The notes under the pieces: generated by a model
Told to the model about the DNA's origin: nothing
What the model saw: only the letters and a program-made list of their open reading frames with translations
The model's database searches: none
Translations under genes and position numbers: made by a program
Part shown: positions 35,452-44,356 of the stretch, in pieces
Position numbering within the stretch: position 1 is the first letter of the stretch
How the letters are laid out: every line of letters starts with the position of its first letter
Origin: Candidatus Tectomicrobia bacterium
Lineage (GTDB): Bacteria > UBA8248
Direction: 5' to 3'
DNA length: 64,000 nt
Assembly: GCA_016192135.1 (NCBI GenBank)
Contig: JACPUR010000018.1
Coordinates: 1 to 64,000 of the forward strand

Positions 35452-36387
35452 CTACCCCACCACCGCCTTGGGCAGCATGGCGTGGACGCCCTTGTACCCG
35501 TTCACGATCTGGGTCACCCGCAGGTCCACCGCGAGGCTGCAGAGCGTGTAGGCGTCGTCCCGGCCCATGCCCCTGAGCTCCCCGAGGAAGCTGATCGTCT
35601 CCCGGAGCGCCATCTTGGCCGCGTTGTCGAGGATGGGGTCGAAGCCCATGAGGATGTGGTGCGTGGGCGTCTCGGCACGGGGAGATTTCAGCTTCAGGTC
35701 CTTGCGGAGGCGGACCTCGAAGGTGCCCATCAGGCCCGTCTCGACCGCCGTGAGGCAGCATTCGCCGTCCCCCTGGCAGCCGTGGCCGTCTCCGACCGAG
35801 AGCCGCGCGCCCTCGTTGAAGACCGGGAGATAGAGCACCGTCCCGGCCACCAGCTCCTTGTTGTCGAGGTTCCCGCCCCAGGCCCCGGGGGGCATGGAGG
35901 GGACCTGCCCCATCGCGGGGAGGGGCGCCACCCCGATGTTCCCGAAGAAGGGGGCGAGCGGCACGTTCACCCCCGCGCCCCAACCGCAGGTGCGCCGCCC
36001 GAGGTCGATGTCCACGATGCGCTTGACGGTGTAGGGGAAGTCGGCCGGCAGGCCTCCGGCCAGGGGGTGGAACTGGTTGTAGCCCCAGTCGTAACGCGGC
36101 TGGATGTCCTTGATTCGGATCTCCAGCGCGTCCCCGGGACGGGCGCCCCGCACGGCCACCGGCCCCGTCATCATGTGGGGGCCCGGGCCCTGCGGGATCT
36201 TCTCCAGGATGGCGCGCAGGGCCTCCGAGGCGCGGCTCCCCACCTTCTCCACGTGCTCCTTGCGCCCGGACTCGGTGCCCACGACCAAGGTGTCGCCCGA
36301 GTCGATGGTCATGAGGGGCGGGAGCCCGGCGTCGTAGTAGCCCCAGTGGACGGTGTCGGGTCCGGCGATCAGTTCGTGGCGCGCCAT
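35452..36387 (-). CDS. Acetamidase/formamidase family protein (paralogue 3)
   Basis: 311 aa from ATG 36387 (GGGAGA six bases upstream). FmdA/AmdA fold: ARPGDALEIRIKDIQPR (near residue 90), a Gly-rich GDGHGCQGDGE (near 190) that holds the active-site residues, and a C-terminal YTLCSLAVDLRVTQIVNG. Such enzymes hydrolyse formamide or small amides to ammonia and acid. It begins 10 bp after its neighbour's stop. The closest relatives in the window are the next two genes. Confidence 0.9.
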   Translation of the reverse strand: MARHELIAGPDTVHWGYYDAGLPPLMTIDSGDTLVVGTESGRKEHVEKVGSRASEALRAILEKIPQGPGPHMMTGPVAVRGARPGDALEIRIKDIQPRYDWGYNQFHPLAGGLPADFPYTVKRIVDIDLGRRTCGWGAGVNVPLAPFFGNIGVAPLPAMGQVPSMPPGAWGGNLDNKELVAGTVLYLPVFNEGARLSVGDGHGCQGDGECCLTAVETGLMGTFEVRLRKDLKLKSPRAETPTHHILMGFDPILDNAAKMALRETISFLGELRGMGRDDAYTLCSLAVDLRVTQIVNGYKGVHAMLPKAVVG

Positions 36388-36397
36388 GGTGTCTCCC

Positions 36398-37333
36398 CTA
36401 TCCAAACAGCGCCTTGGGCAGCATGGCGTGGACGCCCTTGACCCCGTTTACGATCTGGGTCACCCGCAGGTCCACCGCCAGGCTGCAGAGCGTATAGGCG
36501 TCGTCCCGGCTCATCCCCTTGAGTTCCCCGAGGAAGCTGATCGTCTCCCGGAGCGCCATCTTGGCGGCGTTGTCGAGCAGGGGATCGAAGCCCATGAATA
36601 TCCAGTGCGCGGCCGTCTCGGCGCGGGGGGTGGAGAGCTTCATGTCCTTGCGCACGATGAGCTCGAACTCGCCCGTCATGGCCGTCTCGATGGCCGAGAG
36701 GCAGCTCTCGCCGTCCCCCTGGCAGCCGTGGCCGTCCCCCGCCGCGAAGAGCGCCCCCTCGACGAAGACCGGGAAATAGACCGTCGCCCCGGCCCCGAGC
36801 TCCTTGTTGTCGAGGTTCCCGCCCCAGACGCCGGGCGGCATGGAGGGCACCCGCCCCATCGAGGGAGGGGGCGCGACGCCGAAGTTCCCGAAGAAGGGCG
36901 CGAGCGGCACCTTCACCCCGGCGCCCCAGTCCCCCGTCCCGGCCTTGGCGTCGAGCTTCACGATCACGAGCCGGGTGTGGGGGAAGTCCTCCGGGAGCCC
37001 TCCCAGGAGGGGCCGCACCACGTTGAAGCCCCAGTCGTAGCGCAGGCGGACGTCCCGGATGCGGACCTCGAGCACGTCCCCGGGCATGGCTCCCTGGACG
37101 GCGACCGGCCCGGTCAGGATGTGCCCGCCCAGGTCGCGCTCCCCGTTCTCGACGATGTCCCGGAGCTCCGGGGAGGCCAATTTCTCGATGGGGCCCTCCA
37201 GCGTTCGGACCCCGGGCTCGGCGTGGATGACCACCGTGTCCCCCGAAGCGGCGGTGAGAACCGGCTTTTTCTTCGGACAGTAATAGCCCCAGTTCACCGT
37301 CTTGGCGGTCGCGGTCAGCTCGTGCCGGGCCAT
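36398..37333 (-). CDS. Acetamidase/formamidase family protein (paralogue 2)
   Basis: 311 aa starting at MARHEL, like its neighbour. It carries the same blocks as the two paralogues: TGPVAVQGAMPGDVLEVRIRDV, GDGHGCQGDGESCLSAIE and YTLCSLAVDLRVTQIVNGV. Near-equal length and strong similarity show tandem duplication. Amide specificity cannot be told, and divergence between copies suggests different substrates. Confidence 0.9.
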   Translation of the reverse strand: MARHELTATAKTVNWGYYCPKKKPVLTAASGDTVVIHAEPGVRTLEGPIEKLASPELRDIVENGERDLGGHILTGPVAVQGAMPGDVLEVRIRDVRLRYDWGFNVVRPLLGGLPEDFPHTRLVIVKLDAKAGTGDWGAGVKVPLAPFFGNFGVAPPPSMGRVPSMPPGVWGGNLDNKELGAGATVYFPVFVEGALFAAGDGHGCQGDGESCLSAIETAMTGEFELIVRKDMKLSTPRAETAAHWIFMGFDPLLDNAAKMALRETISFLGELKGMSRDDAYTLCSLAVDLRVTQIVNGVKGVHAMLPKALFG

Positions 37334-37397
37334 GGGATCTCCTGGAGATGAATTACACCGATCAGGGGCTCATCCTTTCCAAAGGACCACCCCGCCT

Positions 37398-37480
37398 GTC
37401 ATTCTGAACGGAGCGAAGCGGAGTGAAGAATCTTCGCGTGCGGCCACTCACGAAGATTCCTCGCTGCGCTCGGAATGACA
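37398..37480. repeat. TCATTCYGAGCG-type inverted repeat
   Basis: TGTCATTCTGAACGGAGCGAAG and CGCTGCGCTCGGAATGACA end the element as inverted arms, with GAATCTTCGCGTG and ACGAAGATTCC inside. Confidence 0.8.
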
Positions 37481-37504
37481 CCAAAATCGAGCCAGCCTGT
37501 CCCC

Positions 37505-38440
37505 CTACTCGAACAGCGCCTTGGGCAGCATGGCGTGGACGCCCTTCACGCCGTTCACGATCTGGGTCACCCGCAGGTCCACCGCCAGGCTGCACAGCGT
37601 ATAGGCGTCGTCCCGGCTCATGCCCTTCCACTCGCCCAAAAACTTGATCGTCTCGCGCAGGGCCGTCTTGGCCGCGTTGTCGAGGATGGGGTCGAAGCCC
37701 ATGAGGATCCAGTGGGTGGCCGTCTCGGCGCGCGGGAGGGCGAGCTTCAGGTCCTTGCGGAGGATGAACTCGATGGTGCCGGTCAGGCCCATCTCGATGC
37801 CGTTGATGTTGGCCTCGCCGTCCCCCTGGCAGCCGTGGCCGTCCCCCGCCGAGAAGAGCGCCTCCTCGTTGAAGACGGGGAGGTAGACGATCGAGCCCGC
37901 GCCGAACTCCTTGTTGTCGGTGTTGCCGCCCCAGGCCCCCGGGGGGGAGGTGGGGATCACCCCGAGCTGGGCGGGGGGGGCGACGCCGAAGTTCCCGAAG
38001 AAGGGGGAGAGCGGCACCTTCACCCCCGCCCCCCAGTCCCCCGTCCAGGACCCCTTGTCCACCTCGACGATGGAGAGGTGGACGTAGGGGAAATCCTCGG
38101 GCAGCCCGCCCACCAGGGGGCGGAAGCCGTTGTAGCCCCAGTCGTAGCGCGGCTGGATGTCCCGGAAGCGCACCTCGAGCACGTCCCCCGGCCTTGCGCC
38201 CCGGATGGCCACCGGCCCCGTCATGATGTGGGCCCCTCCCGCCGGGGCCTGGGTTTCGAGGATCGTCTTGAGCGCGGGGGAGATGCGCCCCGCCATCTTT
38301 TGGAGGAGGTCCTTGCGGCCCGACTCGGTGTGGATGACGAGGGTGTCGCCCGGGTCGATGCTCAGCACGGGCTTCAGCGCCGCCGAATAGAAACCCCAGT
38401 GCACGTTGTCCGGCCGGGTGATCAGTTCATGGATGGCCAA
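37505..38440 (-). CDS. Acetamidase/formamidase family protein (paralogue 1)
   Basis: 311 aa from TTG 38440, chosen because GAGGAGG lies six bases upstream and the length then equals the two paralogues. A longer frame to 38536 adds Arg-rich residues without a site. Same diagnostic segments: TGPVAIRGARPGDVLEVRFRD and GDGHGCQGDGEANINGIE. First of the three-gene tandem set, separated from the second by a repeat element. Confidence 0.9.
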   Translation of the reverse strand: MAIHELITRPDNVHWGFYSAALKPVLSIDPGDTLVIHTESGRKDLLQKMAGRISPALKTILETQAPAGGAHIMTGPVAIRGARPGDVLEVRFRDIQPRYDWGYNGFRPLVGGLPEDFPYVHLSIVEVDKGSWTGDWGAGVKVPLSPFFGNFGVAPPAQLGVIPTSPPGAWGGNTDNKEFGAGSIVYLPVFNEEALFSAGDGHGCQGDGEANINGIEMGLTGTIEFILRKDLKLALPRAETATHWILMGFDPILDNAAKTALRETIKFLGEWKGMSRDDAYTLCSLAVDLRVTQIVNGVKGVHAMLPKALFE

Positions 38441-38551
38441 CGGTTGCCTCCTCGGGAACCGGAAAGGGAGCCGCGGGAATCGGTATCGGGCCGAAACAGG
38501 ACAGAGGACTCTACCATCCGGGGCGGAAGGGATCAAAAAGCGGGGGGCCCC

Positions 38552-42285: not shown

Positions 42286-42747
42286 CTATTTCTTCCGCCT
42301 CGCCGCGAGGAACTTCTCGAAGTACTTGGTGAGCGGGTTGGTGGTCCAGTCGAAGTTGAGCCTCTTGGCCACCTCGAGCGTCTCTTCCGCCGTCCAGTCC
42401 TGCGCCTCGGCCTCGTGCATCAGCGAGCAAACCCCGGCCCGCCCGAGGACCCTTCAGTGGACGAACACGGGCCCTTCCCGCTTGGCATCGGCGATGGCCC
42501 GGTTCACCTGGGCGGCGGATTCCTCGGCGATGGTCTGAGCCGTCAGGGGAATGTTGACGTAGTTCATTCCGAGGGACTCGATCAGGTCCTTCTCCTGCCC
42601 GGGGGGAAGGTGCACCTCCTCCTCGTTGGCGTCCCGGACGTTGATGATCGTCTTCACGCCCTTCTTGGCCAGCTCCTGCAGCTCCTCCGCCGTGGGCTGG
42701 CCGCCGAACGACAGCTTGTCCGATAGGTCACGGTATTGCATGGCCAT
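42286..42747 (-). CDS. Phosphatase-like (DUF442/DSP-type) selenoprotein, Sec at codon 98
   Basis: 153 aa if the in-frame TGA at 42456-42454 is selenocysteine. The usual model would stop after FVH. Before the TGA the protein reads LSFGGQPTAEELQELAKKGV and TIINVR, typical of the small cysteine-phosphatase family called DUF442. The catalytic loop becomes H97-U98-R-V-L-G-R-A-G, matching H-C-x4-R. The frame then continues 55 codons, EAEAQDWTAEETLEVAKRLN and on to a Lys-rich end, before a TAG. A SECIS-like hairpin lies at 42422-42443. Start ATG 42747 has GGAGGA upstream. A selenol nucleophile in this family is unusual. Alternatives: a point-mutated gene or a sequence error. Confidence 0.78.
42422..42443 (-). 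promoter_or_regulatory. SECIS-like hairpin of phosphatase-like selenoprotein
   Basis: Stem GGCGGGC/GCTCGCT (7 bp with two G-U pairs) with an eight-base loop beginning CG, starting 11 bases after the TGA. The spacing fits bacterial SECIS elements, although the loop is larger than in the other two. Confidence 0.5.
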
Positions 42748-42788
42748 GGATGGTTCCTCCGACGGACGCAGGGCCGAATGGGGGAGCG

Positions 42789-43631
42789 TCATCCCCGTTG
42801 CACGATCTCCCGGTAGCGCATGAGGCGCTTGATCCTGTCCTCGCTGCCCTCTCGCTGGCAGATGCCGATGAGGTTGTTGAGCATCCGCTCCACGATGCGG
42901 CGCGGCGGGGTCTCCTGCAGGAAGCGCAGGTCGAAATGATACCCCAGCCCGCGCACGATGGCGTCGCAGTCCTGCACGCTGAGCCGGCGGCCCCCCTCGA
43001 AGGGGTCGAGGAAGATGGGCCCCTCGGGCGCCTCGTACTTGACGATGAAGTGGCCCGGCATCCCCACCCCCCGGAAGGGGAGGTCCAGCCGCCGCCCCAG
43101 CATCAGGTAGACGGACGCGAGGGAGATGGGAATCCCCCGCCGCCGGTCGAGCACGCGGTTCATGTAGCTGTTCTTGGGATCATAATAGTTGTCCCGGTCG
43201 CCGTCGAAACGCAGCTCGCCGTGCAGGTACTCGGCCGTCCTCTCGACGATCTCCGCCGGCGCCGCCCCCTTCCCCAGCCGCAACCGCAGCGCCTCCGCCA
43301 TCCGATCGAGCTCCGCCTCCCACCGTCCCATGTCCTCGAGCGGATAGCCGTAGGAGGCCAGCAGGAAGACGCCCCGCTCCAGGTCCCCCTCCTCGGGAGC
43401 CGCGACGGCCCAATCGGCGAAAGCGCGCTCCAGCATCCGGTGGTGGTGGTCCTCCAGGGCGGGCGGAAGGACCGCCGGCCCCCGCCCCTCCCCGCGCAGC
43501 CGGAGGAGAAGCCGGTCCCGGTCCTCCTCGGAGAAGCCGGCGAGCTGGCGATCCAGGACGGCGGTGATGGAGGGGCGCTCATCCTCCAGCAGCAGGCAGA
43601 GGGCGCCGAGCTGGGCGTCGGTCAAGGGCAT
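42789..43631 (-). CDS. SirB1/transglutaminase-like protein
   Basis: 280 aa from ATG 43631 (GAGG upstream on the minus strand). The core NSYMNRVLDRRRGIPISLAS followed by YLMLGRRLDLPFRGVGMPGHFIVK is the SirB1 transglutaminase-like domain (residues about 165-210). The usual catalytic Cys is not obvious. An N-terminal helical domain (LTDAQLGALCLLLEDE) precedes it, and TPR-like helices follow. A promoter (TTGGGA-17-TATCAT) lies upstream. The phosphatase-like selenoprotein gene follows by 41 bp in the same direction. Confidence 0.82.
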   Translation of the reverse strand: MPLTDAQLGALCLLLEDERPSITAVLDRQLAGFSEEDRDRLLLRLRGEGRGPAVLPPALEDHHHRMLERAFADWAVAAPEEGDLERGVFLLASYGYPLEDMGRWEAELDRMAEALRLRLGKGAAPAEIVERTAEYLHGELRFDGDRDNYYDPKNSYMNRVLDRRRGIPISLASVYLMLGRRLDLPFRGVGMPGHFIVKYEAPEGPIFLDPFEGGRRLSVQDCDAIVRGLGYHFDLRFLQETPPRRIVERMLNNLIGICQREGSEDRIKRLMRYREIVQRG

Positions 43632-43968
43632 GGGGGCCTCCCTTCCCAGGCGACCGGGGAACTCCTTCCCTATGATAAGATCACCCGCGGCCATTCCCAA
43701 GTTGAAATTTTTGGCATTCCCGGTGGGGGCGATTGACAAGTTTCATTCATGGCTTGCCGCGCCCGCTCCCGCTTTTTTCACGCCAGGAGCCACCTCCGGC
43801 GGATTTCACATGATCCAAGCGGGCGGAGGAGAGAAAGCCGCCTATTGACGCAGCCCGAATCCCGGGCGCGTTTGGGGCTGCGGCGGCGGTTTTGTCGTGT
43901 GTAAGCGGGGAAAATCGAATCCGGAAGATCGGGTTAAACCCTTACCCGCCATCCGGCAGGAGGCACGC
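43632..43968. other. Gap with minus-strand promoter
   Basis: No gene is seen. The promoter for the SirB1-like gene is at 43672-43700. The right part leads to the chimeric pseudogene, which has an AGGAGG site at about 43957-43962. Confidence 0.6.
43672..43700 (-). promoter_or_regulatory. Promoter for SirB1-like gene and selenoprotein
   Basis: Minus-strand -35 TTGGGA (43700-43695), 17-bp spacer and -10 TATCAT (43677-43672). The RNA would start about 35 bases before ATG 43631. Confidence 0.5.
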
Positions 43969-44356
43969 GTGCCCACCTACGCCGACGTGGCCGCCAGGGC
44001 GCTGGCCCAGGCCGGAATCGAGTTCGTCTTCGGCGTCCCCGGCAGCCACGGTGACCGACGGGGACACCGCCAATTGGCAGAAGATTCTCGCCACGCTGCG
44101 CACCTGGGAGGTCGAGGCGCTCGTGCCGGGGCACGGCCCGGTGGTCCGGGGCAGGGAGAACGTCCACAAGGCGATCGACGCGCTGGACGCCTACTTCAAC
44201 GACCTGCGGGGCCAGGTCCGGGCCCTGATGCGCCAGGGGAAGAAGCTGGACGAGATCCAGAAGGCGGTGAACGTCGCGAAGTACGCCTCCTGGGGCCGGA
44301 AGAACGCGCTCGCGGGCACGATCAAGAAATTGTACGAGGAGCAGAGCGCGAACTAG
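43969..44356 (+). pseudogene. Chimeric remnant: TPP-enzyme N-terminus joined to metallo-beta-lactamase C-terminus
   Basis: From GTG 43969 (AGGAGG six bases upstream) the frame reads PTYADVAARALAQAGIEFVF and GVPGSH, the start of a thiamine-pyrophosphate enzyme such as acetolactate synthase. About base 44050 this similarity stops abruptly. Another frame then gives TDGDTANWQKILATLRTWEV and VPGHGPVV, the C-terminal region of a metallo-beta-lactamase-fold hydrolase, to a stop at 44356. The two parts are in different frames. A deletion that joined two genes is the simplest explanation. Confidence 0.75.

Follow-up and report, generated by a model that had tools for sequence, protein, structure and literature searches.

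We observed that a gene on the minus strand of the window (the whole 64,000-nucleotide stretch of DNA analysed here) carries an in-frame UGA at 42456-42454 that, judging from its homologues, almost certainly encodes selenocysteine (Sec) at the catalytic cysteine position of a stand-alone DUF442 protein. The initial annotation had raised the possibility of a new selenoprotein family, and the comparison with known families bears this out. As read from its sequences, Sec-DUF442 is a selenoprotein family with no entry in NCBIfam or in the 2026 inventory, which has 119 prokaryotic selenoprotein families and subfamilies and whose Table 1 holds no DUF442 or PTP-fold entry (PMC13188914). NCBIfam (June 2026) had no selenoprotein model for it, and the 22 members that we collected all matched just two sulfurtransferase models. 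Searches within deep-Sep and a 2022 review turned up neither phosphatase nor DUF442, most subscription literature lying outside this search. The family may be identical with the GOS 'hypothetical protein GOS_A', of which there are two Sec sequences. The PTP/DSP fold, for which we found no entry in the 2026 list, thereby gains a selenoprotein family. Overall, we consider it probable that the protein is a Sec-dependent enzyme handling sulfane sulfur or persulfides.

The Sec-DUF442 gene and its homologues

The minus-strand frame runs from an ATG at 42747 to a TAG at 42288-42286 and contains a single in-frame TGA, at the position of the DUF442 catalytic cysteine. It translates as MAMQYRDLS...GPVFVH-TGA-RVLGRAGVCSL...RRKK-TAG, with 97 residues before the TGA (ending in FVH) and 55 after it (beginning with RVLGRAG), that is, 153 residues including Sec98 (42454-42456). 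Re-reading the sequence confirmed the TGA, the 55 further codons and the TAG at 42286 that had been described earlier. A ribosome-binding site, GGAGG, can be read 8 nt 5' of the ATG (42756-42760, minus strand). The upstream gene on the same strand, a conserved neighbour of the Transglut_core2 family (42789-43739), lies 41 bp before the Sec gene; since it terminates in TGA, UGA is also an ordinary stop in this genome. Gene finders that terminate at UGA would truncate such proteins at about 97 residues, with the catalytic loop incomplete.

A search of related genomes yielded 22 homologues from 16 genomes, 37-74% identical (the window itself apart); the named records are MAGs of Nitrospinota or "Ca. 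Tectomicrobia", and some are called just 'bacterium'. TGA was found in the same column in 22/22. The earlier proposal, that Sec stands in place of the catalytic Cys, had been open to the objection that homologues might end at the TGA; the result favoured the proposal, since all 22 share the frame through it. Distant homologues outside the phylum carry Cys at the Sec site (e.g. HCKSGLRSG and HCASSNRVG), and every one of those inspected there (L092-L105) had Cys. In most pairs compared, dN fell below dS both before and after the TGA, indicating purifying selection past it.

The catalytic loop, H97-U98-x4-R103 (42439-42459, minus strand), is marked by columns 98 and 103, which are invariant over the Sec and Cys homologues, and by the structure model described below. 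Another cysteine, Cys107 (codon at 42427-42429, minus strand), is invariant in the window's Sec clade, and is absent from the Cys homologues and from a second Sec clade.

The SECIS hairpin and the Sec-decoding machinery

A SECIS-like hairpin had been noted 11-32 bases downstream of the TGA. We found it at +11 to +32 (42443-42422, minus strand), where the consensus fold of the window's clade gives a 7-bp stem and an 8-nt loop, CGGGGUUU, with the apical G expected of a bacterial SECIS. Folded alone, the window's hairpin showed no stability beyond that of shuffled sequences (66 nt, z = +1.8; 29 nt, z = -1.0), and it was therefore judged by comparative tests; base-pair counts are uninformative in this clade because the stem is nearly invariant. 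Synonymous difference over codons 100-108 was 0.103, against a median of 0.458, and conserved fourfold and sixfold codons were fixed in 4/5 cases within the hairpin and 0/16 outside it (Fisher p = 8e-4). The loop starts at +18, a spacing shared with the SelD genes of these genomes. With TGA in 22/22 homologues, dN below dS on both sides and a synonymous freeze confined to the hairpin, the conserved TGA is not due to chance.

We further looked for the selA, selB, selC and selD genes, as the initial annotation had recommended. In the window's genome, selA and selB share a contig, some 0.9 kb from each other, and a tRNA-Sec with anticodon TCA (UCA) is present, so that the absence of sel genes and tRNA-Sec, which would have spoken against Sec, was not what we found. 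The one part missing was selD: the window's own assembly (96.8% complete) gave no match that passed the cut-off. Among 17 relatives, 14 have a selD that passes, with one TGA in each copy. Its absence here is probably an assembly gap. A weak selD candidate (L042) was rejected; it shares its frame with a stretch resembling thiamine-phosphate synthase and, by eye, looks like ThiL. As read from these sequences, the UGA is decoded by SelB and tRNA-Sec together with the SECIS hairpin just 3' of it.

A second Sec lineage outside the phylum

One weak match of a wide search came from a genome that does not belong to the window's phylum; there the catalytic codon is again TGA (LIH-TGA-MAGTRAAV). A search of its relatives (the lineage being L118/L120-L139, from genomes G280, G412, G425 and others) gave 14 intact copies and one broken copy with TGA at this site, and five with Cys (TGC or TGT). 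The loop motif is H-U-AGGT-R. The stem showed changes on both sides in 4/6 pairs, and its covariation score was reached by 0/500 shuffles. A GGUC loop at +21 to +24 was present in 14/14 TGA copies and in 0/5 Cys copies (Fisher p = 9e-5, kinship ignored). tRNA-Sec was found in the one genome of this lineage that was examined. The conserved TGA, the Cys homologues, the sel genes, the frozen hairpin and this second TGA lineage with a covarying hairpin together argue for a selenoprotein family.

The tree kept the two groups of Sec proteins apart (supports 97/87 for the window's clade and 100/99 for the second lineage), and Cys forms appeared on more than one branch within the second lineage. The simplest reading of these sequences would be that Sec originated separately twice in DUF442 proteins, the deep tree being unsure owing to long branches. 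The closely related Sec and Cys forms of the second lineage are a natural set for asking what selenium brings to an enzyme on the PTP/DSP fold.

Fold and predicted function

The AlphaFold2 model of the window's protein had a pLDDT of 91.7, and Foldseek matched it to DUF442 and other PTP-fold structures (2f46, TpbA and 3gxh; TM about 0.7-0.8). Sec98 sits between strand 94-97 and helix 102-115, the usual position of the nucleophile. As in the PTP/DSP phosphatases (TpbA, 4r0s; Tk-PTP, 5z5a), the fold places an Arg-closed anion loop after the central strand. Pfam gave PTP-NADK as the top match, above its cut-off, and PF04273 (BLH_phosphatase/DUF442) at 31.6 against a cut-off of 26.1, while the match to Rhodanese was just E = 0.2. 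The TIGR01244 sulfurtransferase model scored 45.8, under its curated cut-off of 85.85; all 22 members matched this model and that of Blh, at scores that, where seen, fall below the cut-offs.

The family resembles DUF442/BLH_phosphatase, TIGR01244 and the Blh ST domain in fold, in the six-residue loop from nucleophile to Arg and in significant profile matches for all 22 members. It differs from them in having Sec for Cys, in standing alone rather than fused to an ETHE1-type dioxygenase, and in scoring under the curated cut-offs of TIGR01244 and Blh. The DUF442 domain of Blh, itself of PTP fold, takes sulfur from thiosulfate and gives it to cyanide; GSH, too, can serve as acceptor for the ST domain (PMC5823870). 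Within this group, Blh is the one protein for which such activity is known. Rhodanese-like selenoproteins (PF00581 forms 1-5 of the 2026 inventory) are likewise predicted to transfer sulfur, with Sec as the nucleophile in several forms; unlike Sec-DUF442, they have the rhodanese fold.

The protein had been annotated as phosphatase-like, which holds for the fold and not for the predicted function. The loop U98-RVLG-R103 is a six-residue U-x4-R, as in all 22 homologues, none of which has the C-x5-R phosphatase loop, and in their alignment no Asp or Glu is invariant at residues 60-97 that could be a general acid. A review of human rhodaneses gives active loops of Cx4R/T or Cx5R, the latter in Cdc25 phosphatases (PMC10135228), a length rule that derives from the rhodanese fold and not the PTP fold. 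Because the loop has six residues, no general acid is conserved and the closest relative assayed, the DUF442 domain of Blh, has sulfurtransferase activity, phosphatase activity is disfavoured, and the name 'phosphatase' is probably wrong as to function, the likeness to PTPs being one of fold only. The same loop, the Blh activity, the matches to sulfurtransferase models, the absence of an invariant acid and the Sec-OsmC gene found just before paralogues in five genomes favour transfer of sulfane sulfur or persulfide. Against it stand the PTP fold, the PTP-type family at the top of the Pfam matches, the sulfurtransferase scores under their cut-offs, the rhodanese origin of the loop-length rule and the missing selD. 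On balance we prefer sulfur transfer, by a little, to a phosphatase or another redox role.

For such an enzyme we propose that Sec98 would open a six-residue anion-binding loop closed by Arg103, with the selenolate as nucleophile. The selenolate would take sulfane sulfur from thiosulfate, a persulfide or a polysulfide to form an Se-S intermediate, from which sulfur would be handed to a thiol acceptor; the substrate would be persulfide or sulfane sulfur and not phosphate. Cys107, invariant in the window's clade, might assist there in resolving the intermediate, a part that would be dispensable in the second clade.

Cys107 also bears on the best-surviving alternative, a redox enzyme (a reductase of peroxides, disulfides or oxidised thiols) acting through Sec98, with Cys107 as resolving partner in the window's clade. 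This cysteine is present in 22/22 Sec proteins and missing from the Cys homologues, the paralogues described below sit behind a Sec-OsmC gene, and the majority of known selenoproteins are redox-active. However, the second Sec clade has no equivalent Cys, the model puts Cys107 in the helix after the loop, and fixation of its codon is owed in part to the SECIS element. We regard this role as possible but rather unlikely. A U98-C107 selenenylsulfide as the general mechanism was set back because the second clade is without Cys107.

A true Sec phosphatase, in which the selenolate, in the role of the PTP/DSP cysteine, attacks a phosphoester to form an Se-phosphate intermediate, would fit the PTP fold, the best structural matches (2f46, TpbA and 3gxh) and the PTP-NADK and BLH_phosphatase scores over cut-off. 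It is unlikely, as U-x4-R is one residue shorter than the C-x5-R loop of, for example, TpbA (HCKHGNNR), the general acid is not invariant and the closest relative with a tested activity transfers sulfur. An extended form of this idea, that Sec arose at least twice as a PTP-fold nucleophile and that one or more of the clades are true selenium-dependent phosphatases acting by way of Se-phosphate, we consider distinctly improbable.

One second-lineage copy has selA and selB some 2.3 kb away, as might be expected of a selenium carrier in which Sec, or its Cys counterpart, holds a perselenide and passes selenium to SelD. This is very improbable, however, since such a locus was seen just once, the neighbours are unrelated at most loci, and a Sec enzyme feeding Sec synthesis would depend on itself. 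That the gene encodes no selenoprotein, the TGA being a pseudogene lesion, a sequencing error or a normal stop codon that ends a 97-residue protein, could draw on the missing selD and the insignificant lone-sequence hairpin, but is in practice already refuted by the recurrence of this TGA in 22 copies spread over 16 assemblies and in 14 of the second lineage, by purifying selection 3' of the TGA and by the covarying SECIS of the second lineage.

Gene neighbourhood and the OsmC-like partner

At 15 loci, including the window, the gene adjoins the Transglut_core2 gene and a gene that we take, by eye, to be dihydroxy-acid dehydratase-like. In five genomes, a second copy begins about 22 bp after a same-strand OsmC-like gene with a TGA of its own, ...MATGF-U-LLT (L053, L055, L056, L058 and L059). 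The OsmC-like family is a known selenoprotein family (NF041052, UxxT). From this arrangement, Sec-OsmC and the Sec-DUF442 paralogue are probably co-transcribed as a two-selenoprotein operon in the five genomes, and the linkage suggests a role in thiol/persulfide or hydroperoxide stress. Both are bacterial selenoproteins of the same genomes, with OsmC directly upstream at these loci, but their folds are unrelated; the OsmC-like protein is a partner and not a relative. Genes of the metallo-beta-lactamase fold also lie nearby, which is reminiscent of Blh, without a fusion.

The window's genome has three OsmC-like homologues with in-frame TGA. OsmC-like selenoproteins are greatly expanded in the window's phylum, with an in-frame TGA in nearly all matches (genomes G000-G017); one match, G002:C69:6135-6683, carries two. 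Through the linkage, a candidate selenoprotein for handling sulfur or persulfides is connected with this Sec-OsmC family, so expanded in these uncultured bacteria.

The gene tree and synteny were in conflict for some genera, whose Transglut_core2/IlvD-locus copies cluster with paralogues that another genus has at the OsmC locus (L011-L016, the same loci as L054, L060, L061, L063 and L064, against L004-L010). Either an old duplication with loss or a replacement would account for this.

Elsewhere in the window, overlapping plus-strand frames at 43892-44356 first resemble the beginning of a TPP enzyme (TPP_enzyme_N, E = 0.0017, under the cut-off) and then, in another frame, read like the end of a metallo-beta-lactamase-fold protein, which may be a remnant or an assembly join. 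Three similar tandem genes on the minus strand at 35452-38536 look, by eye, like acetamidase/formamidase paralogues.
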